Shown here: positions 4,762 through 64,000 of the stretch, piece by piece
Position numbering within the stretch: the stretch's first letter is position 1
Layout: every line of letters starts with the position of its first letter
Notes under the pieces: model-generated
Databases searched by the model: none
Seen by the model: the letters and a program-made list of their open reading frames with translations, nothing else
Told to the model about the DNA's origin: nothing
Assembly: GCA_015956445.1 (NCBI GenBank)
Contig: WIUZ02000002.1
Coordinates: forward strand, 2,728,001-2,792,000
Direction of reading: 5' to 3'
Source: Thelephora terrestris
Lineage: Eukaryota; Basidiomycota; Agaricomycetes; Thelephorales; Thelephoraceae
DNA: 64,000 bases
Translations under genes and position numbers: made by a program

Positions 4762-7700
4762 ATGAAACATTTCTTGAAAATAAAGCGCAAGAAATCTCCT
4801 GAGCCTCCACACCAGCCCACTTTTCCTGGAGACCCATTTAGCCTCGATCCTGGACCACCCGAAGGTGCGCCATAGAGGCTTTCTCGTCAGGACTATATGG
4901 GTTATCCTGATGTTACTGTGGCACTAGACGGGAGAGGCGGCACGGATCCCTTTCGGAATGGCATGGATGTTGGGCAAGAACCCACTGCGTCGGGTCCTCC
5001 GATGTCTGGTCTTCTGATTGGTGGCTCCGGCCACAGAAATGGCGAGTGTTCTTGATTCCTGTGCGCAATTGAGGCCAACATTCATCCGGGTTCCTGTTAT
5101 TCTGGCCACCAGTTGTGGACGCTAGCGACACTGGATGGAGGGGGATTGACGCGGCAGAAGCTTCCAGGGGTACGTGACAATGTGATGGTGCTCACTCCCT
5201 CTCACCGTGTACCAGCGGCAAAGAGAGCTCGTAAGGGTGCTTCCCTCGGGGACGTAAATGAGGCCACAGAAAAGTTTGGTCCTCTTAAAGTTGTCCTAGG
5301 GGCCATCCCTCCTCTTTTTGCCAATCGTGAAGTTCGCCCATACTCATTTTCCTATAATTCTCCGTTGACGAACAAATTTTTAGGGGAGCGTCGCGGCGGG
5401 AAACAAGATTAAAATGTCCTCTTCCGGGTAGCTACGTTAGAGGAACATTTCAGCTTGCCACCGGCTGACGTGGCAGATCAGAGGCGCCGGGATGAATTGA
5501 TACGGTATACCAAGTTCCCATTTTTACGCTCAGTACTGACTCCCTCCTAGCAATTCCAGGGGAATCGAAGGACAATTATGCTCGTTGTGTAAGAAGCCGG
5601 AGTGGCAGCAGCTTACCGATCACGCCCAAGACGAAGAAGAGGCATTCAGACTTCTCGAAGACCTACAAGTTGCTGTTGTCGACTATCAGGTTCGTTCGCA
5701 ACCTGACAGTTCCCTCGGTTTTGACGATGACAACAGATGGCGCGACAAACGATGATTTACAACCAAGAACTCAAATCAATAGCGAGTTTTTCCTTTGTGT
5801 CACATTTGGTCAACGTACTGACCATTCTTGGTAGGACCCAGGTTGGATTATATTCTATATTTCTATGACCATTCCCTGATACGCTCCATTCCCTCCTCAG
5901 CGGAAGCGGCTGTCCTCAATCATTTCCGCTCTGCACGACAGGCCGAGTATCGACACGGCGACCGCAATGGCTGTCTCAGGGGAACCCGTGGAGCCATCCT
6001 GGATGAGATTGAACTCTGGTCGTACGACTTCTACAAGCCCTCTGTCTACTGGTTGAACGGGCTCGCCGGAACGGGGAAGAGCACTATCGCACAAACGATC
6101 TCAGAGAGAACCTTTGCAGACGGACGACTGGGCGCCTCCTTCTTCTGCTCGCGAGATTTTGAAGACCGAAGTAACCTGAAGTCCATCTTCCCCACCCTTG
6201 CGGTCCAACTCGCGCGCAACTACCCCAAATTCCGATCGATCTTCGTCCCACTGATTCAGGCAGATCCAGAAATCGTCCATGAGTCTCTGTATGGCCAAAT
6301 GAACAAGTTGGTAGTCCAGCCCCTCGTCGAATCCTCCGTTTCGACCGTCATCGTGATTGACGCTCTGGACGAATGTAAAGACGAGGAACCCGCTTCGGCA
6401 ATCTTGTCGGTCCTTGGCCAATTTGTGGCACAGATCCCAAAGGTCAAGTTCTTCGTCACCGGTCGTCCGGAGCCACGCATTCGAGAAGGCTTCCGGCTCC
6501 CGCTGTTGGCCGAAGCGACGGATGTGTTTGTCCTCCACGAGGTAGAGTCGAGTCGAGTCAACAGTGACATACGGCTGTTTTTTGGACACAAATTCTCCGA
6601 AATCAGGAGCCGAAGACGTGGAATGGATGGCTGGCCAACAGCAGAACAACAGGGCCTACTTTGCGAACGCACAGGGGGGCTATTCGTCCACGCCATAGCT
6701 ACGGTCAGGTTCATCGACCAGAAGAATGTCAATCCCAAGGAACAGTTGGTTCGCCTTCTACGATCGCCAGATAGCAGATTCGAGGGAAAGATCAAGTTCA
6801 AGGTGAATACAACACTGGATTCGCTCTACATCACGATTCTCCAGGAGGCCTTCGGCGACGACGACCCAGAGGGTGACCCCAGAGTCAGATCTGTTCTCGC
6901 TGCTGTCATCCTGGCTATGAACCCTCTCTCCCCAGCAACCATCGCCACACTCCTGAGCATTGACACCGAAGATGTGTTTCCTCTCCTGTCATCGTTACAC
7001 TCACTCCTCGTTCTCCGGGAGGACGTCGATCACCCCGTTAGACCCTTTCACAAGTCTTTTCCGGACTTCATCGTCGATCCAACCCGGTGCATCAATCAAA
7101 GGTTCCATATCTCTCCCCCAGCTCACCATGCGGAATTCCTGCTCGGCTGCCTCGAGACGATGAACCGAAGACTGGAGAAGAATATGTGCAAGCTTCCAGA
7201 TGGGGTCACCAACTCAGAGGTTGCCGACCTGAGGGAGAGGACCGAACAATACATAGACGAAGGTTTGCAATATGCCTGCCAGTCGTGGCATAAGCACCTC
7301 ATTCACACAACACCCGTGCACTCGCCCGAAATCGTGCCTGTTCTTCGCCGATTCCTAGAAGAGAAGTTTCCATTTTGGTTGGAGGTGCTCAGCGTTCTCG
7401 GTACCGCAAGGGAAGCGGTTGACGCGCTGACGGCGGCTGAACAATGGCTGGACGTATGTTCCGCTTCATTAGCATCGATTCTTTCAAATCTCACGCGGGC
7501 CACACCCAGACATCGCCAACTCCAACCCCCGGTCTCGTCAAAGACTACTTTCGTTTCGTAATCACATTTTTCGAAGTCATCAGCACTTCAGCTCCCCATA
7601 TCTACCACACCGCAATCCCCCTATCACCCCGAGGGACGACCGTACGGGAGCTGTACGAACGGTATGCCAGTCCCTTGGCTAGAGTCGTACATGGGTTGCC

Positions 7701-38017: not shown

Positions 38018-38941
38018 GAATCACGGAGTCGAGGTGGATAGTAATCTTCCACCGCTTTACGCTTCCGTCGTTATGTCGTCATAGTAGGATGTGACCAGCT
38101 GTAATCAGACTCGACGGGGATCAGAGTGAAGAAAAGCGGGCTTATGACCAGTGTGGCAATTGCTGAGAAGGCGATTGTGATGACGTCGCCGCCCGTCATT
38201 AGAGTCGATCATTCCCATACATCCTCCTCGCTCTCTGTTTGACCTGCGAACATCAAGTACATATTGATAAGAGATATATATCTGGGCTACCGACGACATC
38301 AGCAAATACATAAGTCTCGTTAAATACAACCAAGATCGACAAGATATCTTTCTCTCCGTCCCGGTTGTGTATGCTTGATTAGGGTTCGGTATCGGGCTTT
38401 CTAAATCGTGGACAGATGAAGAGGGGGGGGGGGGAAGGAGAAACATCAAAGGCCCAGAAGAGAAGCAAAACACGACGAGATGGAGACCTGGGGAGAAAAC
38501 AGGAGTCGAAAGAGGTAAAGAATAAATATAGGAGGAAACACTGGAGAGCGATCCGGTACAGCGATGGAGAAGGACGCAGAGGAAGGGTAATCTAGCTATC
38601 GAAGCAGTTTGGTTTCTACGCTACAAGGAAATGGGGGAGATGTGAGGTGAGAGCGAACCGATAATGTTAGATACGGTTGGGAGGTCTTGGGGACGATAGA
38701 TAGTACATACGGGGAAGATACGAGGTCCACGACAGAATGCACAATAATAGAGGAAAAAGCGATGGCAAAACGAACGAGAAAAATATAGCAGATGGAAGGT
38801 TGCAGGATCATTAGAACGTGCGACCAAAGGAATCGTGGACGAACGTGTGGGTTCTAATTTGATGCGCCAAGCATCGAGGCGGTCTTGACAGAATGACCCA
38901 ACGAGAATGGGCTGGCATTGGACCCGTTGTTGGCAGCGTCA
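38018..38941. other. 3' flank of the Crz1-like gene
   Basis: About 920 bp. The stretch around 38590-38640 is similar to 60769-60812 downstream of the kinase-fused copy, so the duplication that made the fusion carried this flank too. A 12-base G run lies at 38423-38434. No gene seen. Confidence 0.45.
38423..38434. repeat. G homopolymer (12 bases)
   Basis: A simple poly-G tract in non-coding DNA. Its length may be unreliable in the assembly. Confidence 0.8.
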
Positions 38942-41301
38942 TTACATCATTACGCCGCTCATCCAGTTATCGGGCTCAGCTTTGACATTGCCACGGTAAT
39001 CGCCGCCGATGGAACCCATACCGCCGAGGTCCATCGCCACGAAGCTACCAGCAGAGTCCGGAGGGCCTGATCCCATCGAGTTTCCAGAGCTGAGCCCAGC
39101 GGAACTGATGGTGCCATTGGCTTGGGCTTCGTCCTGAGCCTTCTGACAGTCCTGTCCTCCCTCTGAACGGACTGGAAGGATTGAGTCGACGATTGGTTAG
39201 ATGAAACGGAGATGAACTTACGATGACGATTGAGCGCGTCCATCCTTTGAAACGATTTGTTGCAACCCTCACACTTGTGTGGCCGATAATTGAAATGAAG
39301 CTGCTCGTGGCGCTTGCAGTCATGGGCCCTTGCAAACCCTTTCCCGCACCCAGGCCACTTGCACTGGAATGGTTTCTCCTCGTTATGTGAACGCATATGG
39401 CCTATACAGGCAGGTGAGCACTATTTCACGTAGTAGTCGATGTGACGCACCTTTGAGGTTGAAGTGACGAGTGAAGGTACTTCCGCACCCAGGAACAGGA
39501 CAAGCAAAATTCGCATCCGTCTTCCTTCGCCTTTCGCTGGCCTCCGCCGTGGCCGTGGTCGTAACGTTAGGTTTGCTGACTAAGGATCCAGGGGTCGTGG
39601 AGTTGCCCAAATGGGGGTCCATATCTGCAAGATTTGACCCTGGGTCGAGTTGTTGACCAAGCTCCCCGATACCGCCGGGTGGCAATCCAAATGAGGAAGC
39701 ACCGTAGGCCGGCATTGATGTAGGTCTGCTTCTAGAAGAGACCGGGAGGCTTTGCGGACTGGGGATGGATGGTAAGGGGTCGTAGCCAAGGAGTGGGGAG
39801 GCCTTTGGGCTGGGATAGGGACTAGCACGAGAGCTCCCCGGTGTACTGTGTGGTCCGACTCCGCCACGATCCCTAGAACCGCTCGAGCTCCTCCTATGAT
39901 GACCCCGATAGAAGCTGGAAATAGGCTCTGTTGGATGTAGAAACTGCTGCCCTGCGGCACTGAGATTGTCCGCCGCGGTACGAGCGATAAATTCCGGATG
40001 TGATGAGGGTGGATAAGAGATTCCGCCCTCAGACCTAGAATGCCTATGCCCGGATACCCTTCCACCACCATCGGATCTAGCTCTCCGTAGACTGGGGGCA
40101 GTAAATGCCATTTCAGGGCTTAGGAATTGAGAATCCGTTTGTGGCTTTCCCCCAAAGCTATAGTTATCGGATACACCCAGTTGCGGGGAAGTGTTGGAGA
40201 AAGCGGACTGGTAAGTATCGGAGGAGAACAAGACCCGCGCCTGTGGCTGTGGGCTGGTGGATGCGAGAATGTCGTTGGGATTTACGCCGGTCTTATTGTG
40301 ATTATAGGAGGAAGGATCGGGAGAAGCGACTGCCCATGCTGGTGGTCGGGTGGATGTGTCAGACTTGCTACGGGTCCGTGGCTGCTGAGGAGCAAGGTAG
40401 TTGTCAAGGGCGTTTGATTGCGAATTGCTGAAATCGGAATCGATACGGGTATCAAATGGGATATTGTGAGGAGTCGCTTCCGTGTTCCAAGTCGGAGGGG
40501 CCGAAGCTGTGAAAAAGGAGTAAATCTTTGATATGGAGGGAAGATGGGAAATCAAAGTAGAAAAAGCGTACTCTGTGCTGGATTGTTGATAAACGGAACC
40601 GTGTGAGGGAGTCCCCCTGAAATGGGCGTGGCGGGGACGATGTGTAGCTGTGGTCCATTCATAACACCGCCGTCGCCTTGGGGTGCATTGATCATGGGAG
40701 TGTTTGCGCGTAGATCTCCGGGATTCATGGAAGGAGAAGCGTCAGGGATGAGTATGGAGGGAGGGGACGGAGGTTTGTGAGAAGGGGAGCTCGGTTTGTC
40801 AGGAGGGAGCAGGGAGGTGCTCCAGTGTGGCGACTCGAACCTAAGCGATTCGAAATTGTGAATGGGAGGGGAACAGGGGTTGTAGTGGGAGTGAGACGAA
40901 ACGGAAGAGGCTCGGGAGCGAGATTCGCTCTCTTGTTCTGGAAGGCCGTTAGAAGAGCCGGGCGAGCTGTGGTCAAAGGGTTGGTCGAAGCCACCGTCGA
41001 TTGGAGGAGTTACTGAGACTGAGACATGAGGGTTCATGAAGTTGAGAAGCGGATTGGGGATATTGGAGGGGGCGTCGTATTCCGCTGGGTCGTAATCTGG
41101 TTGGTCGCTGAGATCGGTGACGTCGAACTCGAGCTCGGAGAAGGCGGTGCAGGGAGAGTTCTGGTAAGAACCGTTATAAGAGGGTGTCTGAGGCAGGTTT
41201 GGAGAGGGGGCGGTAAAGTCGAATTCGAAGCGATTGTCGATGGAAAGGTCTGGGGAACCATAGCCCTGACTCTGGTCGTTTAAATAGTCGTGGCTATCCA
41301 T
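38942..41301 (-). CDS. Crz1-like C2H2 zinc-finger transcription factor
   Basis: Exons 41301-40572, 40506-39451, 39401 to about 39229, and a last exon to 38942 join in frame. The N-terminal ~600 residues are disordered and rich in Ser, Pro and Gly. Three fingers end the protein: [19 protein letters not shown] followed by [23 protein letters not shown] followed by EQLH; and [18 protein letters not shown] followed by RSEGGQDC. The order, the linker after finger 1, the AHDCKRH core of finger 2 and the final DALNRHLRSEGG...C resemble calcineurin-responsive Crz1/Prz1 factors, so a calcium/stress role is a reasonable inference. A PSILIP hexapeptide in exon 1 resembles the calcineurin-docking PxIxIT motif but lacks the final threonine. 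Another C2H2 family cannot be excluded. Confidence 0.85.
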
Positions 41302-60270: not shown

Positions 60271-60399
60271 AGTGTTTTCAAGGGCGTTTGATTGCGGGGT
60301 GCAGAAATCGAAATCGGTGGGGGTATATCGAACATTGTATCTTGGGAAGCCGCTTCCGCGTGTTCCGCGTTGGGGGGGGGGAGCAAAGCTGTGAAAAAG
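60271..60399 (-). pseudogene. Relic of the middle of the Crz1-like gene
   Basis: GGGCGTTTGATTGCG, AAATCG, GAAGCCGCTTCCGCGTGTTCC and AAGCTGTGAAAAAG appear here in the same order and strand as at 40407-40520, where they flank the first intron of the Crz1-like gene and encode the start of its second exon. About 130 bp survive and do not read as protein. It lies downstream of the fused copy that lacks exactly this part. Confidence 0.65.
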
Positions 60400-60768
60400 T
60401 CACTGTTGACATCCAGGTAGGAATATTGGCCAGCTAGGGAGGCGTTGTTACCGGATGGGTTGTAAATACCTCAACATCAGCAAAACCGTCCGGCTGCTGT
60501 GGCGCAGGGGCGGGGGTTTAATTTACCCTCAATCATCTGTCGTGCTATATGTCCGATCGTGCTGCGGGCAACCGATGCATCGATGAGAATTCGCACTTCG
60601 GAAAACGCAACCCATTGTTTCCGTTCCGATTGTCTTGCCGGATCGTATATACACAGTTAGTACCTACTCCGTATAATTCGAGCCTCCTAAACGATGAAGA
60701 ATGGAGGAGAGGGGGGAGAATTACAATAAGCCCAGAAGAGAAGAGTGTCTGTTGCAGCGGAAGGAGAG

Positions 60769-60812
60769 AAAGCTATTGAAGCAGTTTGATTTGTGCGCTA
60801 CAAGGAAATAGG
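60769..60812. repeat. Duplicated 3' flank of the Crz1-like gene
   Basis: GAAGCAGTTTG-TTT and CGCTACAAGGAAAT are shared with 38597-38632 downstream of the Crz1-like gene. Conservation outside the coding part shows that the zinc-finger half of the fusion arrived by DNA duplication and not by retroposition. Confidence 0.6.
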
Positions 60813-60918
60813 CATCGTTGTGAGGGAAGAGCGTACCGACGACGTTGGGTGTGATTTAGGGGTGCAAACAAATGCGGCGGTCGATGCGCGATAATCAAGG
60901 AAGAAAGCGATGGTGAGC

Positions 60919-63900
60919 TCAACGAGGGGAGCTCTGCAAATCGGGCGCGTTGTGGATCGATGGTGTGGGGCCTGATCCCATCGTGTTTCCAGAGCTGGGC
61001 CCAGCTGAATTGACGGTACCGCTGGCTTGGGCTTCTTCCTGGGCCTTCTGACATTCTCGTCTTTCCTTTGAATCGACTGGAATGCACTGAGTTGAGGATT
61101 GATTCGATGAGAAAGAAAAAGGACTTACGGTGTCGGTTGAGCGCGTCCCTCTTTTGGAATGACTTGCCGCAACCCTCACACTTGTGGGGTCGGCGATTGA
61201 GATGAAGTTGCTCGTGGCGCTTGCAGTCGTGAGCCCTGGCAAACCCTTTCCCGCAGCCAGGCCATTTGCACCGAAATGGTTTCTCGTTGTGTGAACGCAT
61301 ATGTCCTACGCGGGCAGGTAAATCCTATTCCACATGGAGGCCACGGTGACTCACCTCTAAGAGCGGAGTGCCTAGCGAAGGCACTTCCACATCTAGGAAC
61401 AGGGCAGGCAAAAATCGCGTCCGTCTTCCGTCGCCTTTCACTTGCCTGCACTGTGGCGGAGGTCGTGACGTCAGATTTACTAACCGTTGTGACAGAAGAC
61501 GCGGAGGAATTCAAAGCGGGTTCCACGTCTGGAACGTTATACAACTGTCGTCCATTGCCTTGGGTGGTATTGATCAGCGGAAAATCCGCGTGTAGGTTAA
61601 GTTCGGTGTTAAAGGGCTCAGGGGTGAATAAAGGGGAGCTCGGTTCGTCTGGAGGAAGAAGGGAACTTAGACTCCAGGATCCAACTGGCAGTTCAAGGGA
61701 TTCAAGCGGGGAGGCCCACATGGTAGAAGGGGAATTACTCGAGGAGGCGAAGTATCCAGTCGAATCATAATCTCCGACCTCGTAGTGGCGGAAGCTCCCA
61801 ACGAGGCCGCCATAATAGGGAGTCTGAAACGGAATTGAAGAGGAGGCGGTGAAGTCGACTTCGGGGTGGTCTTTGACCTGAGGGTCTATGGAGCCCTGGT
61901 AGTTTATAAAGTCACGGCCGCCCAGAGGGGAGGGGCCACTGCGTTCTGTAAACTGCGCAGGCGAGCCCGGTTCTTCAAGAGAGAAAAGGATGGAACTCCA
62001 TGGGGAGCCGGATCTAAGCGATTCAAGTGGAGGGGCTGTTGGCGACGTTTCTCTCGAAGCAGATAAATCCGAAGTGGTGTGCATCAGTGAAAAAGCATCC
62101 GCAACTTCAAGAAGAGGGAAAGGAGATGGGGCCGGAGGCGTATTTTGCTTGTCAGTGGGAAGGGAGGATGGGGGTTGTTTATCAAACTCCAGCTCGGAAA
62201 TTTGAAAGCCTAAGGGGATGTTGTTATCAGGTAGGGCGTGCACATCTTGCCCATCGGGAGGGGATATATGGCCTTCGATGCCGAGAACCCCCTTCACTCC
62301 TTCGTCTTCAGGGCACATTTCCAGGCACTGAAAAACGTCTTCGACACTGGGACGGTCGCTTGGTTGAGGCATCCAACATTGTTCCAACGTGCTCCACAGG
62401 CGGTCTGCGAACCCCTCCTCGCGAAGAGGGCGTTCGCCTTTCAATACCTTCACGAAAACTGTTAAATCTCTGTCTTCGCGGAAAGGCGGGTTCCCGCTAA
62501 CGATTTCGTAGATGACCATTCCCAGAGAATAACAGTCGGAGGATTTTGACGGGCGACTGGTCTTGAGCCCGAAGTCCTGCGGAGAGATACGCTCCGGGCT
62601 CATCCATCGAGCTGTACCACCCTGTGCATATGAGCTGGAGGACAGAAGGTTTGCAGGGTCTGAGATGATCGTAAGGAGACCAAAGTCTGCCAGGTGGGCA
62701 CGGCAACTTTGGTCGACCAGTATGTTAGCCTTGATAGAAAGATATAGTAAGATGGGAGAATGGCGCTCGGGTTGAAAGCTTACCCCCTTGAGGTCTCCAT
62801 GAACCACTCCCCGTTCATGAATGTAGATCAAACCCCTTGCGGCGTCTCCCAACTAGATGAGTTGTCCGATTACCAATAAGATTGAAGCGAAAGGGGCGAG
62901 GTGGCGAAAAACCTTACCAGCTTCAATCGGTCCGCGTCCGGGTTTGCCTCCACAAACTCGTTGAGGTTTCCATTGGGCATCCAGTCCGAGATCATTGCAA
63001 ACTGATTCATGGTCATCGTCACCCCTATCAGCGGTAGGACATTTGGATGACGGAGGGTCTTCCACGTTATGGCCTCCTTGCAGAATCTCTGCACAGGGCC
63101 CTCAGTGCACGGGTATGTGGAGAGTGCATACTCAACGACTAACCCCGATCACCTTCCCCAAATCGCTGTTTGAGAATATCCTTATGACCTTCACGGCAAC
63201 ATCCTTGCCGCGATATTGCCCCTTCCAAACGTCCGCGTACCCACCTTTATATAGCGCGTTGCCGGTTGGATCGTAGCACGCGGGGATCTCCATTGCTTTT
63301 GGAAGGAGTGCGTGGCGACCACACGTCCTGTACAGCGGCCTCAGACACTGGTTTTGGGCCCATGGCGAAAGATCGGGCATATCTAGTGCCTGTTGACGTG
63401 ATATATCAGCATAGGTTCTGCGAGATATATAGGCCTGCGATGATGAACCAATGTGCAACGTGCCTCGTTTATCACATCAATAAAGGTCTGTGCGTCGTCC
63501 CTAGGAAGGTAGCGAATCATGTCAACCACATCCTTGCACATGAGGATCTCCTCGATTAGAGAGGGTAGCTCATGCGGGGCAAACTTGCGTCTAATCAAGC
63601 GTTCAAAGGCTGAAGTACCGAACAGTCAACATTCCGCACAAGATCGGTCGCGGTAAGGCCAATTCTCACCTCCAGGCTCAGATACAGAGGTTGCGCCGCC
63701 AACAGAATGCATATACAGCTGTTGGGTGACACCTGAGCGCACAGGTTTGTCTCCGTTAAAGGGCAGGCTCGGTCTATCGAGATCATCGAGTATATCTTGG
63801 ATCTCTGTCTTGTATCCTTCAATCATTCCCTTTTTGTATTTGATTTGCGGAGTGCTTGTTCCTCTCTTGAGAGTCCGATGGATCTCTAATGTTACCCTGA

Positions 63901-64000
63901 GATTTCGTATTGAGCAGACATGCCCAAGGGCATAAGGCCAATCAACATACCGCCCTAAGTCTTCGAGTGCGACCCTCGTGGATTCGTCGAGATCATCAGC
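60919..64000 (-). CDS. TKL protein kinase fused to a Crz1-like three-finger C2H2 domain, 5' end outside the window
   Basis: Exons before 62784 encode a helical N-terminus ([36 protein letters not shown]), the N lobe with glycine loop [11 protein letters not shown] and VAVK lysine, [20 protein letters not shown], and HGDLKG. One exon, 62729-61355, then reads without a stop through [23 protein letters not shown], the rest of the C lobe, about 260 disordered residues, and finger 1 ([18 protein letters not shown]). Two further exons add [36 protein letters not shown] and the ending DLQSSPR at 60919. Kinase residues look active (K, E, D of HGD, DFG). Finger cysteines and histidines are kept. The zinc-finger part derives from the gene at 38942-41301. 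A kinase that carries its own DNA-binding domain would act in the nucleus; that role is inference. Confidence 0.82.

Follow-up and report, generated by a model that had tools for sequence, protein, structure and literature searches.

Crz1 and Prz1 proteins, such as PuCRZ1 and C. neoformans Crz1, are calcineurin-responsive C2H2 transcription factors that regulate genes under calcium stress. PuCRZ1, a mushroom protein, is reported to be nuclear and to bind GTGGCG (PMC10115967), and the authors of a study on C. neoformans Crz1 report no convincing calcineurin docking site (PMC3520850).

A second group relevant here is formed by the expanded TK-like and TKL kinases of mushrooms, including FslK and its relatives. 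To our knowledge, the function of these expanded families is largely unassigned. A survey of FslK counts additional domains in only 16 of its 241 members (PMC3937382). In plants, a kinase or receptor is joined to an apparently captured extra domain in kinase fusion proteins and integrated-domain NLRs (Lr9, Sr43, Pm4, YrU1), and kinase fusion proteins are reported from plant immunity (PMC10260399, PMC10260397).

Here, we describe a gene of Thelephora terrestris whose predicted product carries a kinase followed by Crz1-type fingers, most likely a real chimeric gene. We document its structure and reading frame, its parent gene, selection on its kinase part and a decayed sister copy, and we consider it plausible that the predicted fusion protein is a DNA-binding kinase. 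An agaricomycete Crz1/Prz1 gene is the source of its fingers and basic stretch as well as of its pieces of exon 1 and its C-terminal stretch; unlike Crz1/Prz1 proteins, it has a kinase in front and lacks the middle region and the motif PxLxIVPATP. It resembles the expanded mushroom kinases in its PF07714 domain, GERP motif and many genomic paralogs (at least 93 matches to this kinase family in the genome) and, unlike most FslK members, its kinase has an additional domain. The apparent capture of an extra domain is shared with the plant proteins, for which a resistance role has been shown; any such role of the fusion described here would be hypothetical.

Gene model and predicted protein

The window, the whole 64,000-nt stretch of DNA analyzed, corresponds to positions 2728001-2792000 of contig C12 (3.46 Mb) in a genome of 40.6 Mb and 60 contigs. 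At its other end, 2-1345 and 5822-7561 (plus strand) contain long frames that by eye resemble a NACHT-type NTPase, followed by WD40-like frames. The fusion gene lies on the minus strand and has 10 exons encoding 948 aa, with its start at 64287, beyond the window edge, and its stop at 60919. Its exons are as follows.

64287-64153, minus strand: exon 1, beyond the window edge (gene model)
64093-63951 (in-window part 63951-64000), minus strand: exon 2 (gene model)
63670-63896, minus strand: exon 3, N-terminal region of the kinase protein (gene model)
63464-63609, minus strand: exon 4, followed by a GC-AG intron with donor GCACGT (gene model)
63144-63389, minus strand: exon 5, glycine-rich loop and VAVK lysine (gene model, Pfam, motifs)
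62918-63088, minus strand: exon 6, kinase N-lobe (gene model)
62784-62852, minus strand: exon 7, catalytic loop HGDLKG (gene model, motifs)
61355-62729, minus strand: exon 8, kinase C-lobe (DFG, SPE), tail, Crz1-derived linker and first part of finger 1
61129-61305, minus strand: exon 9, remainder of finger 1, fingers 2 and 3 (gene model, Pfam, DNA alignment)
60919-61076, minus strand: exon 10, shortened Crz1 C-terminus and stop TGA (gene model)

This model confirms the central claims of the sequence-only reading: it contains an open exon of 1,375 nt (62729-61355) that starts at ANILVDQ and ends within finger 1, and two further exons (61305-61129 and 61076-60919) that finish the fingers in frame and run to a stop. 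All nine introns have an AG acceptor; eight donors are GT and one is GC, and all seven donors of the kinase part, GC included, are matched in two paralogs. Residues 262-515 of the protein match PF07714 (Pfam, E 4e-41) and include VAVKV at 281-285, HGDLKGAN at 374-381 and ADFGLL at 393-398, so that the VAVK lysine, HxD and DFG of a kinase domain are all present. The "TKL" label given by the earlier reading is only approximate, since among the best 60 of 2555 matches to solved chains TK kinases (EGFR, Lyn, Lck) are mixed with TKL kinases (CTR1, B-raf); we call the kinase TK/TKL-type. Pfam recognizes zf-C2H2 at E 4.1e-10, with the strongest stretch at 878-897. The remaining fingers were recognized by eye, giving three Crz1-type C2H2 fingers with complete zinc ligands (also by eye), preceded by the basic stretch ERRRKTDA.

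The frame is free of stops and frameshifts across 948 codons. A linker of 258 codons remained open in the kinase frame in 1 of 2000 dinucleotide-preserving shuffles. An assembly artefact is unlikely, as the window contains no N, the contig is 3.46 Mb long, and a second kinase-Crz1 locus is present on another contig.

Linker and fingers derived from a Crz1-like gene

An intact Crz1-like gene model of four exons lies 20 kb from the fusion in the same window. The parts of the locus related to this parent gene, all on the minus strand, are listed below.

38942-41301, minus strand: parent Crz1-like gene, 731 aa (exons 41301-40572, 40506-39451, 39401-39222, 39171-38942)
61959-62198, minus strand: copy 1, derived from Crz1 exon 1 (Crz1 41139-40783), same frame, the weaker copy
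61557-61913, minus strand: copy 2, derived from Crz1 exon 1 (Crz1 41289-40675), same frame
60968-61484, minus strand: stretch 79% identical in DNA to parent Crz1 39063-39580 (DNA alignment)
60771-60839, minus strand: remnant of the Crz1 3' flank (38594-38661, 81%; DNA alignment)
60274-60428, minus strand: downstream relic, kinase tail into Crz1 exon 2 (DNA alignment)

The parent is 77% identical to P0002, presumably the sequence of a relative, and the Crz1 part of the fusion groups with the parent, P0002 and P0003 (100/99) in a tree mainly of mushroom Crz1 proteins. P0003 (551 aa) itself contains a PHD finger and a Crz1-like finger region. A further copy of the Crz1 gene, at C42:9772-12127 on a 23-kb contig, scores equal to the window copy and is perhaps an alternative haplotype.

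The two exon 1 copies are supported at the DNA level (best E against Crz1 exon 1 of 1e-4 for copy 1 and 6e-8 for copy 2) and the protein level, where 2 of 1000 shuffles reached the score of copy 1 and 0 of 1000 that of copy 2. The linker is Crz1-derived, as had been proposed; its similarity to Crz1 sets in further upstream than proposed, near 62198, owing to the doubled exon 1. All seven Crz1-derived blocks checked are in the Crz1 frame as well as the kinase frame, in agreement with the earlier claim of a single reading frame from the kinase through the C2H2 region. The accompanying statement that nearly the whole factor was captured is too strong: Crz1 residues ~224-534 and the last ~36 have no counterpart in the fusion in shuffle-tested alignments and in the comparison with the parent. 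Plain BLASTP aligns fusion residues 584-936 to Crz1 351-695, which would place the Crz1 middle in the linker; we rejected that part of the alignment, as 119-809 of 1000 shuffles reach the score.

A kinase gene that ends early in the linker, with a separate finger gene beginning inside exon 8, is a reading we consider highly improbable. The linker contains in-frame methionines at which an internal start is possible. Against two genes, no stop lies between the kinase and finger domains, copy 2 is without Crz1's own start codon, in-frame kinase joins are allowed at three further loci (C45, C58_828 and C58_834, described below), and a protein of Mycena alexandri with both domains is recorded as a single chain.

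Downstream of the fusion, the relic consists of a kinase tail (60372-60428, 86% identical to the tandem kinase described below, C run included) and a piece of Crz1 exon 2 (60274-60399, 73%). The joining of these two parts in the relic indicates that the locus was rearranged more than once.

The helix of finger 2 (ARAHDCKR) is the same in the fusion and the parent. In finger 1, the fusion has ARHSALRG where most others have TRxFNLKG, and the changes include N to A in finger 1, at what we take to be a base-contact position, and R to K in finger 3. Given these contact changes, the binding site may differ from that of Crz1 or binding may have been lost. The motif PxLxIVPATP, which in its sequence appears to resemble the calcineurin docking motif PxIxIT, is found in the parent and in 73 of 115 listed proteins with the finger-1 pattern; the fusion lacks it, as do the other 42. 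Neither this motif, with its presumed docking role, nor a serine-rich region, both expected of a Crz1 protein, is found in the fusion, in which the parent's middle is not significantly represented.

We propose that, in a large family of mushroom kinases, a gene of TK/TKL type may have gained Crz1 coding sequence that replaced its ordinary tail; along the protein, two partial exon 1 pieces form the linker and are followed by the basic stretch and then by the three fingers. The product would be translated as one protein, enter the nucleus via the Crz1 basic stretch, bind a variant of the PuCRZ1 site GTGGCG, mainly by the unchanged finger 2, and phosphorylate proteins at the bound promoters. Because the fusion is without the docking-like motif, control by the kinase and not by calcineurin is expected, and the fusion would act at Crz1 promoters under this control. 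We give about even chances to a real chimera that tethers a kinase to Crz1-type promoters, freed of calcineurin docking. If true, the union of a kinase with sequence-specific DNA binding in a single protein would bring a signaling step directly to promoters.

Sister kinases, selection and other C-termini

Two kinases related to that of the fusion bear on its history.

C45:1993900-2004000 (L016, L072): decayed kinase-Crz1 copy, apparently split by an insertion of ~6.7 kb
C12:2792901-2794980 (L010 2901-4980): tandem kinase, upstream of the fusion and just outside the window

In the C45 copy, the kinase is 83% identical in coding DNA and is followed by a 61-nt intron of matching phase and then by Crz1 residues 420-598; the remaining Crz1 part (598-728) lies ~6.7 kb further along on the same strand. 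The intervening ~6.7 kb looks like an insertion in the finger exon, and a 20-nt inverted pair (85%) near its ends has an E of 5.7, non-significant alone. The C45 kinase also has a TGA within an N-terminal exon; judged from these features, this sister fusion is decayed. The tandem kinase is apparently frameshifted near its N-terminus. In a DNA tree, the fusion and C45 kinases are paired at 93/89, a moderate support that fits one ancestral fusion, and in a protein tree of kinase exon 8 the relations among the fusion, tandem and C45 kinases were unresolved.

Selection was estimated from rough counts with scaled site numbers; for the kinase part, these are changes unique to one of the three copies over 525 codons, with 81 codons that differ in all three excluded. 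In the window copy, 44.2 synonymous changes stand against 29.8 non-synonymous ones (omega 0.20). The corresponding numbers are 22 and 54 for C45 (omega 0.73) and 50.8 and 48.2 for the tandem kinase (omega 0.28), whose N-terminal count is inflated because it appears frameshifted. For the Crz1 part, the counts are 10 and 15 in the window copy (omega 0.44, Fisher p 0.034), 11 and 32 in C45 (omega 0.85), and 7 and 6 in the parent (omega 0.25). The kinase part is clearly under strong purifying selection, and constraint on the Crz1 part, including the fingers, is weaker; some of the changes on the kinase branch could be older than the fusion.

These data bear on whether the gene is a young functionless chimera, assembled by rearrangement from kinase duplicates and pieces of genes and heading to decay, which we consider unlikely. 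The TGA and insertion in C45, the apparent frameshift of the tandem kinase, the relics downstream of the fusion and the weakly constrained Crz1 part are as expected from such a history. It is harder to reconcile with a window copy that has an uninterrupted 948-codon frame, a kinase omega of 0.20 and retained zinc ligands.

The kinase clade to which the fusion belongs also seems, on sequence grounds, to carry other captured C-termini. We surveyed the sequence downstream of 17 kinases: the window, C45 and two C58 kinases, the tandem kinase (where the next gene begins after ~0.7 kb), and 12 loci with ~1.5 kb each. Second copies of the downstream sequence were sought at six of the 17 loci, and at five of these part of another gene lies behind the kinase. 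For 6 of the remaining 11, at least one downstream frame was scanned against Pfam, with no match. The two C58 kinases lie in L017 (C58:825001-835000).

L017 9515-7328, minus strand: kinase C58_834, readable into part of a Zn2Cys6 factor
L017 4257-1962, minus strand: kinase C58_828, readable into part of a LIM-domain gene

Both tails contain a stretch like Crz1 exon 1 (tblastn within 10 kb, E 8e-8 for residues 170-245 and 4e-5 for residues 179-236), which a genome-wide Crz1 search at E <= 1 did not return, and a donor that by eye resembles that of Crz1 intron 1. With hand-chosen splice sites, C58_828 can be read in frame past this donor into a partial LIM-domain gene, with homology from L017:3380; the other copy of the LIM gene (L076, C58:1029.6-1032.5 kb) has, by eye, its own N-terminus. 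C58_834 can be read in frame across a scar left by that LIM gene (L017:8606-8699, 78%) and, again with hand-chosen splice sites, from L017:8570 into the Fungal_trans region of a Zn2Cys6 factor. The other copy of this factor (L075, C58:1021.6-1023 kb) has a Zn cluster by eye, which the kinase-linked copy is without; in the Pfam scan of the genome the Zn cluster of L075 was not among the matches, perhaps because of introns. The omission of the Zn cluster at the C58_834 homology breakpoint speaks for capture. The other LIM and Zn2Cys6 copies contain stops in the frames searched, which include introns and one wrong frame.

Behind kinase C1_3965, a 109-aa stretch begins within 300 nt (L007 2200-2526, C1:3965865-3966191). 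It has one other copy in the genome, at C6:790381-790697, and no kinase is listed on C6 among the at least 93 matches. The stretch matched no Pfam family; it reminds us of what we take to be a chromatin-remodeling subunit. The added domains at the C58 and C1 loci are separated from the kinases by an intron or gap and could be neighboring genes. Two further candidates were rejected: the C12_2026 kinase, whose tail is Crz1-like by eye alone and for which a single downstream frame was searched without finding a second copy, and a Crz1-like gene at C1:4052855, which is 18 kb from the nearest listed kinase of the family.

One interpretation of the fusion, possible though doubtful in our analysis, is that it is an integrated bait: the kinase would be a sentinel to which a duplicate of some host regulator is attached (Crz1 here, LIM or Fungal_trans in paralogs), and an intruder that targets the genuine regulator would trip it, in the manner proposed for the plant kinase fusion proteins and integrated-domain NLRs. 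In line with this, kinase fusion proteins exist in plant immunity, paralogs are trailed by different partial gene copies, each with another copy elsewhere, and the C58 junctions are in frame with the hand-chosen splice sites. A decoy should be copied from a host gene that is retained, and the parent of the Crz1 part is indeed intact; for the C58 domains, other copies exist. However, an immune role of this kinase family is purely putative, the DNA-binding residues are partly kept although a pure bait would not need them, and at C58 an intron separates the joined parts, which could be adjacent genes. The exchange of C-termini is better explained by a bait, and the kept fingers by promoter tethering. 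Retained copies and tail scars make the integrated-bait idea testable in fungi.

An extension of the bait interpretation that we also think improbable would be an exchangeable C-terminal slot, with successive in-frame captures (Crz1, then LIM, then Zn2Cys6 without its DNA-binding domain) that left earlier scars and provided baits in fungal intracellular surveillance. Repeated capture of host regulators within one clade would offer a handle on what mushroom kinases sense or control. If true, capture of the tails of various regulators would be an unrecognized route for the rewiring of fungal signaling.

Similar architectures in other species

Returning to the promoter-tethered chimera, the same domain order was found in one protein, P0112 of Mycena alexandri (831 aa), in which a kinase (175-428) is followed by Crz1 fingers. 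It was the only one to combine a kinase with C2H2 fingers among the 120 of 182 listed proteins similar to the Crz1 part of the fusion. An orthologous fusion was not found among 5.8 billion proteins (120 of 182 matches listed). In a second protein search, none of 3120 candidates, kinases included, reached E <= 0.001, a weak negative. With P0112 as the query, 8000 candidates were scored and 2620 matched; among the 120 listed, P0112 alone has both domains. The sequence-only reading knew of no described family with this combination. Given P0112, the architecture is not unique to this locus; among the open-licence papers listed, no title or abstract start described a fungal kinase joined to a transcription-factor domain.

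The origin of P0112 appears to be separate. Its kinase shares 83% identity with P0128 of Mycena rebaudengoi, the one other Mycena kinase in the tree, and groups with P0128 and not with the eight kinases of this genome (100/100). Its Crz1 part forms a clade with Crz1 of Mycena, Roridomyces, Pleurotus and Lentinula at 100/99, on a long branch whose placement is flagged as unsure. Over most of this part, P0112 is 46-57% identical to 11 of 13 Mycena-group Crz1 proteins, and to the other two it aligns over 98 and 172 residues at 82% and 62%; for comparison, M. sanguinolenta Crz1 is 65-73% identical to 10 of 12 other Mycena-group Crz1 proteins and 59% and 44% identical to the remaining two. These placements and identities suggest a diverged paralog joined independently to a kinase, unless P0112 is a merged gene model. 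We rejected common ancestry of the two fusions, as the trees are against it, though P0112 is long-branched.

Mycena kinases similar to P0112 carry other Pfam-confirmed domains, GATA in P0194 and ARID in P0153; together with the C2H2 fingers of P0112 itself, this variety counts toward the bait interpretation. Crz1 of Rhizoctonia and Ceratobasidium is joined to an ABC transporter in three records (P0052, P0058 and P0100), which are probably merged models.
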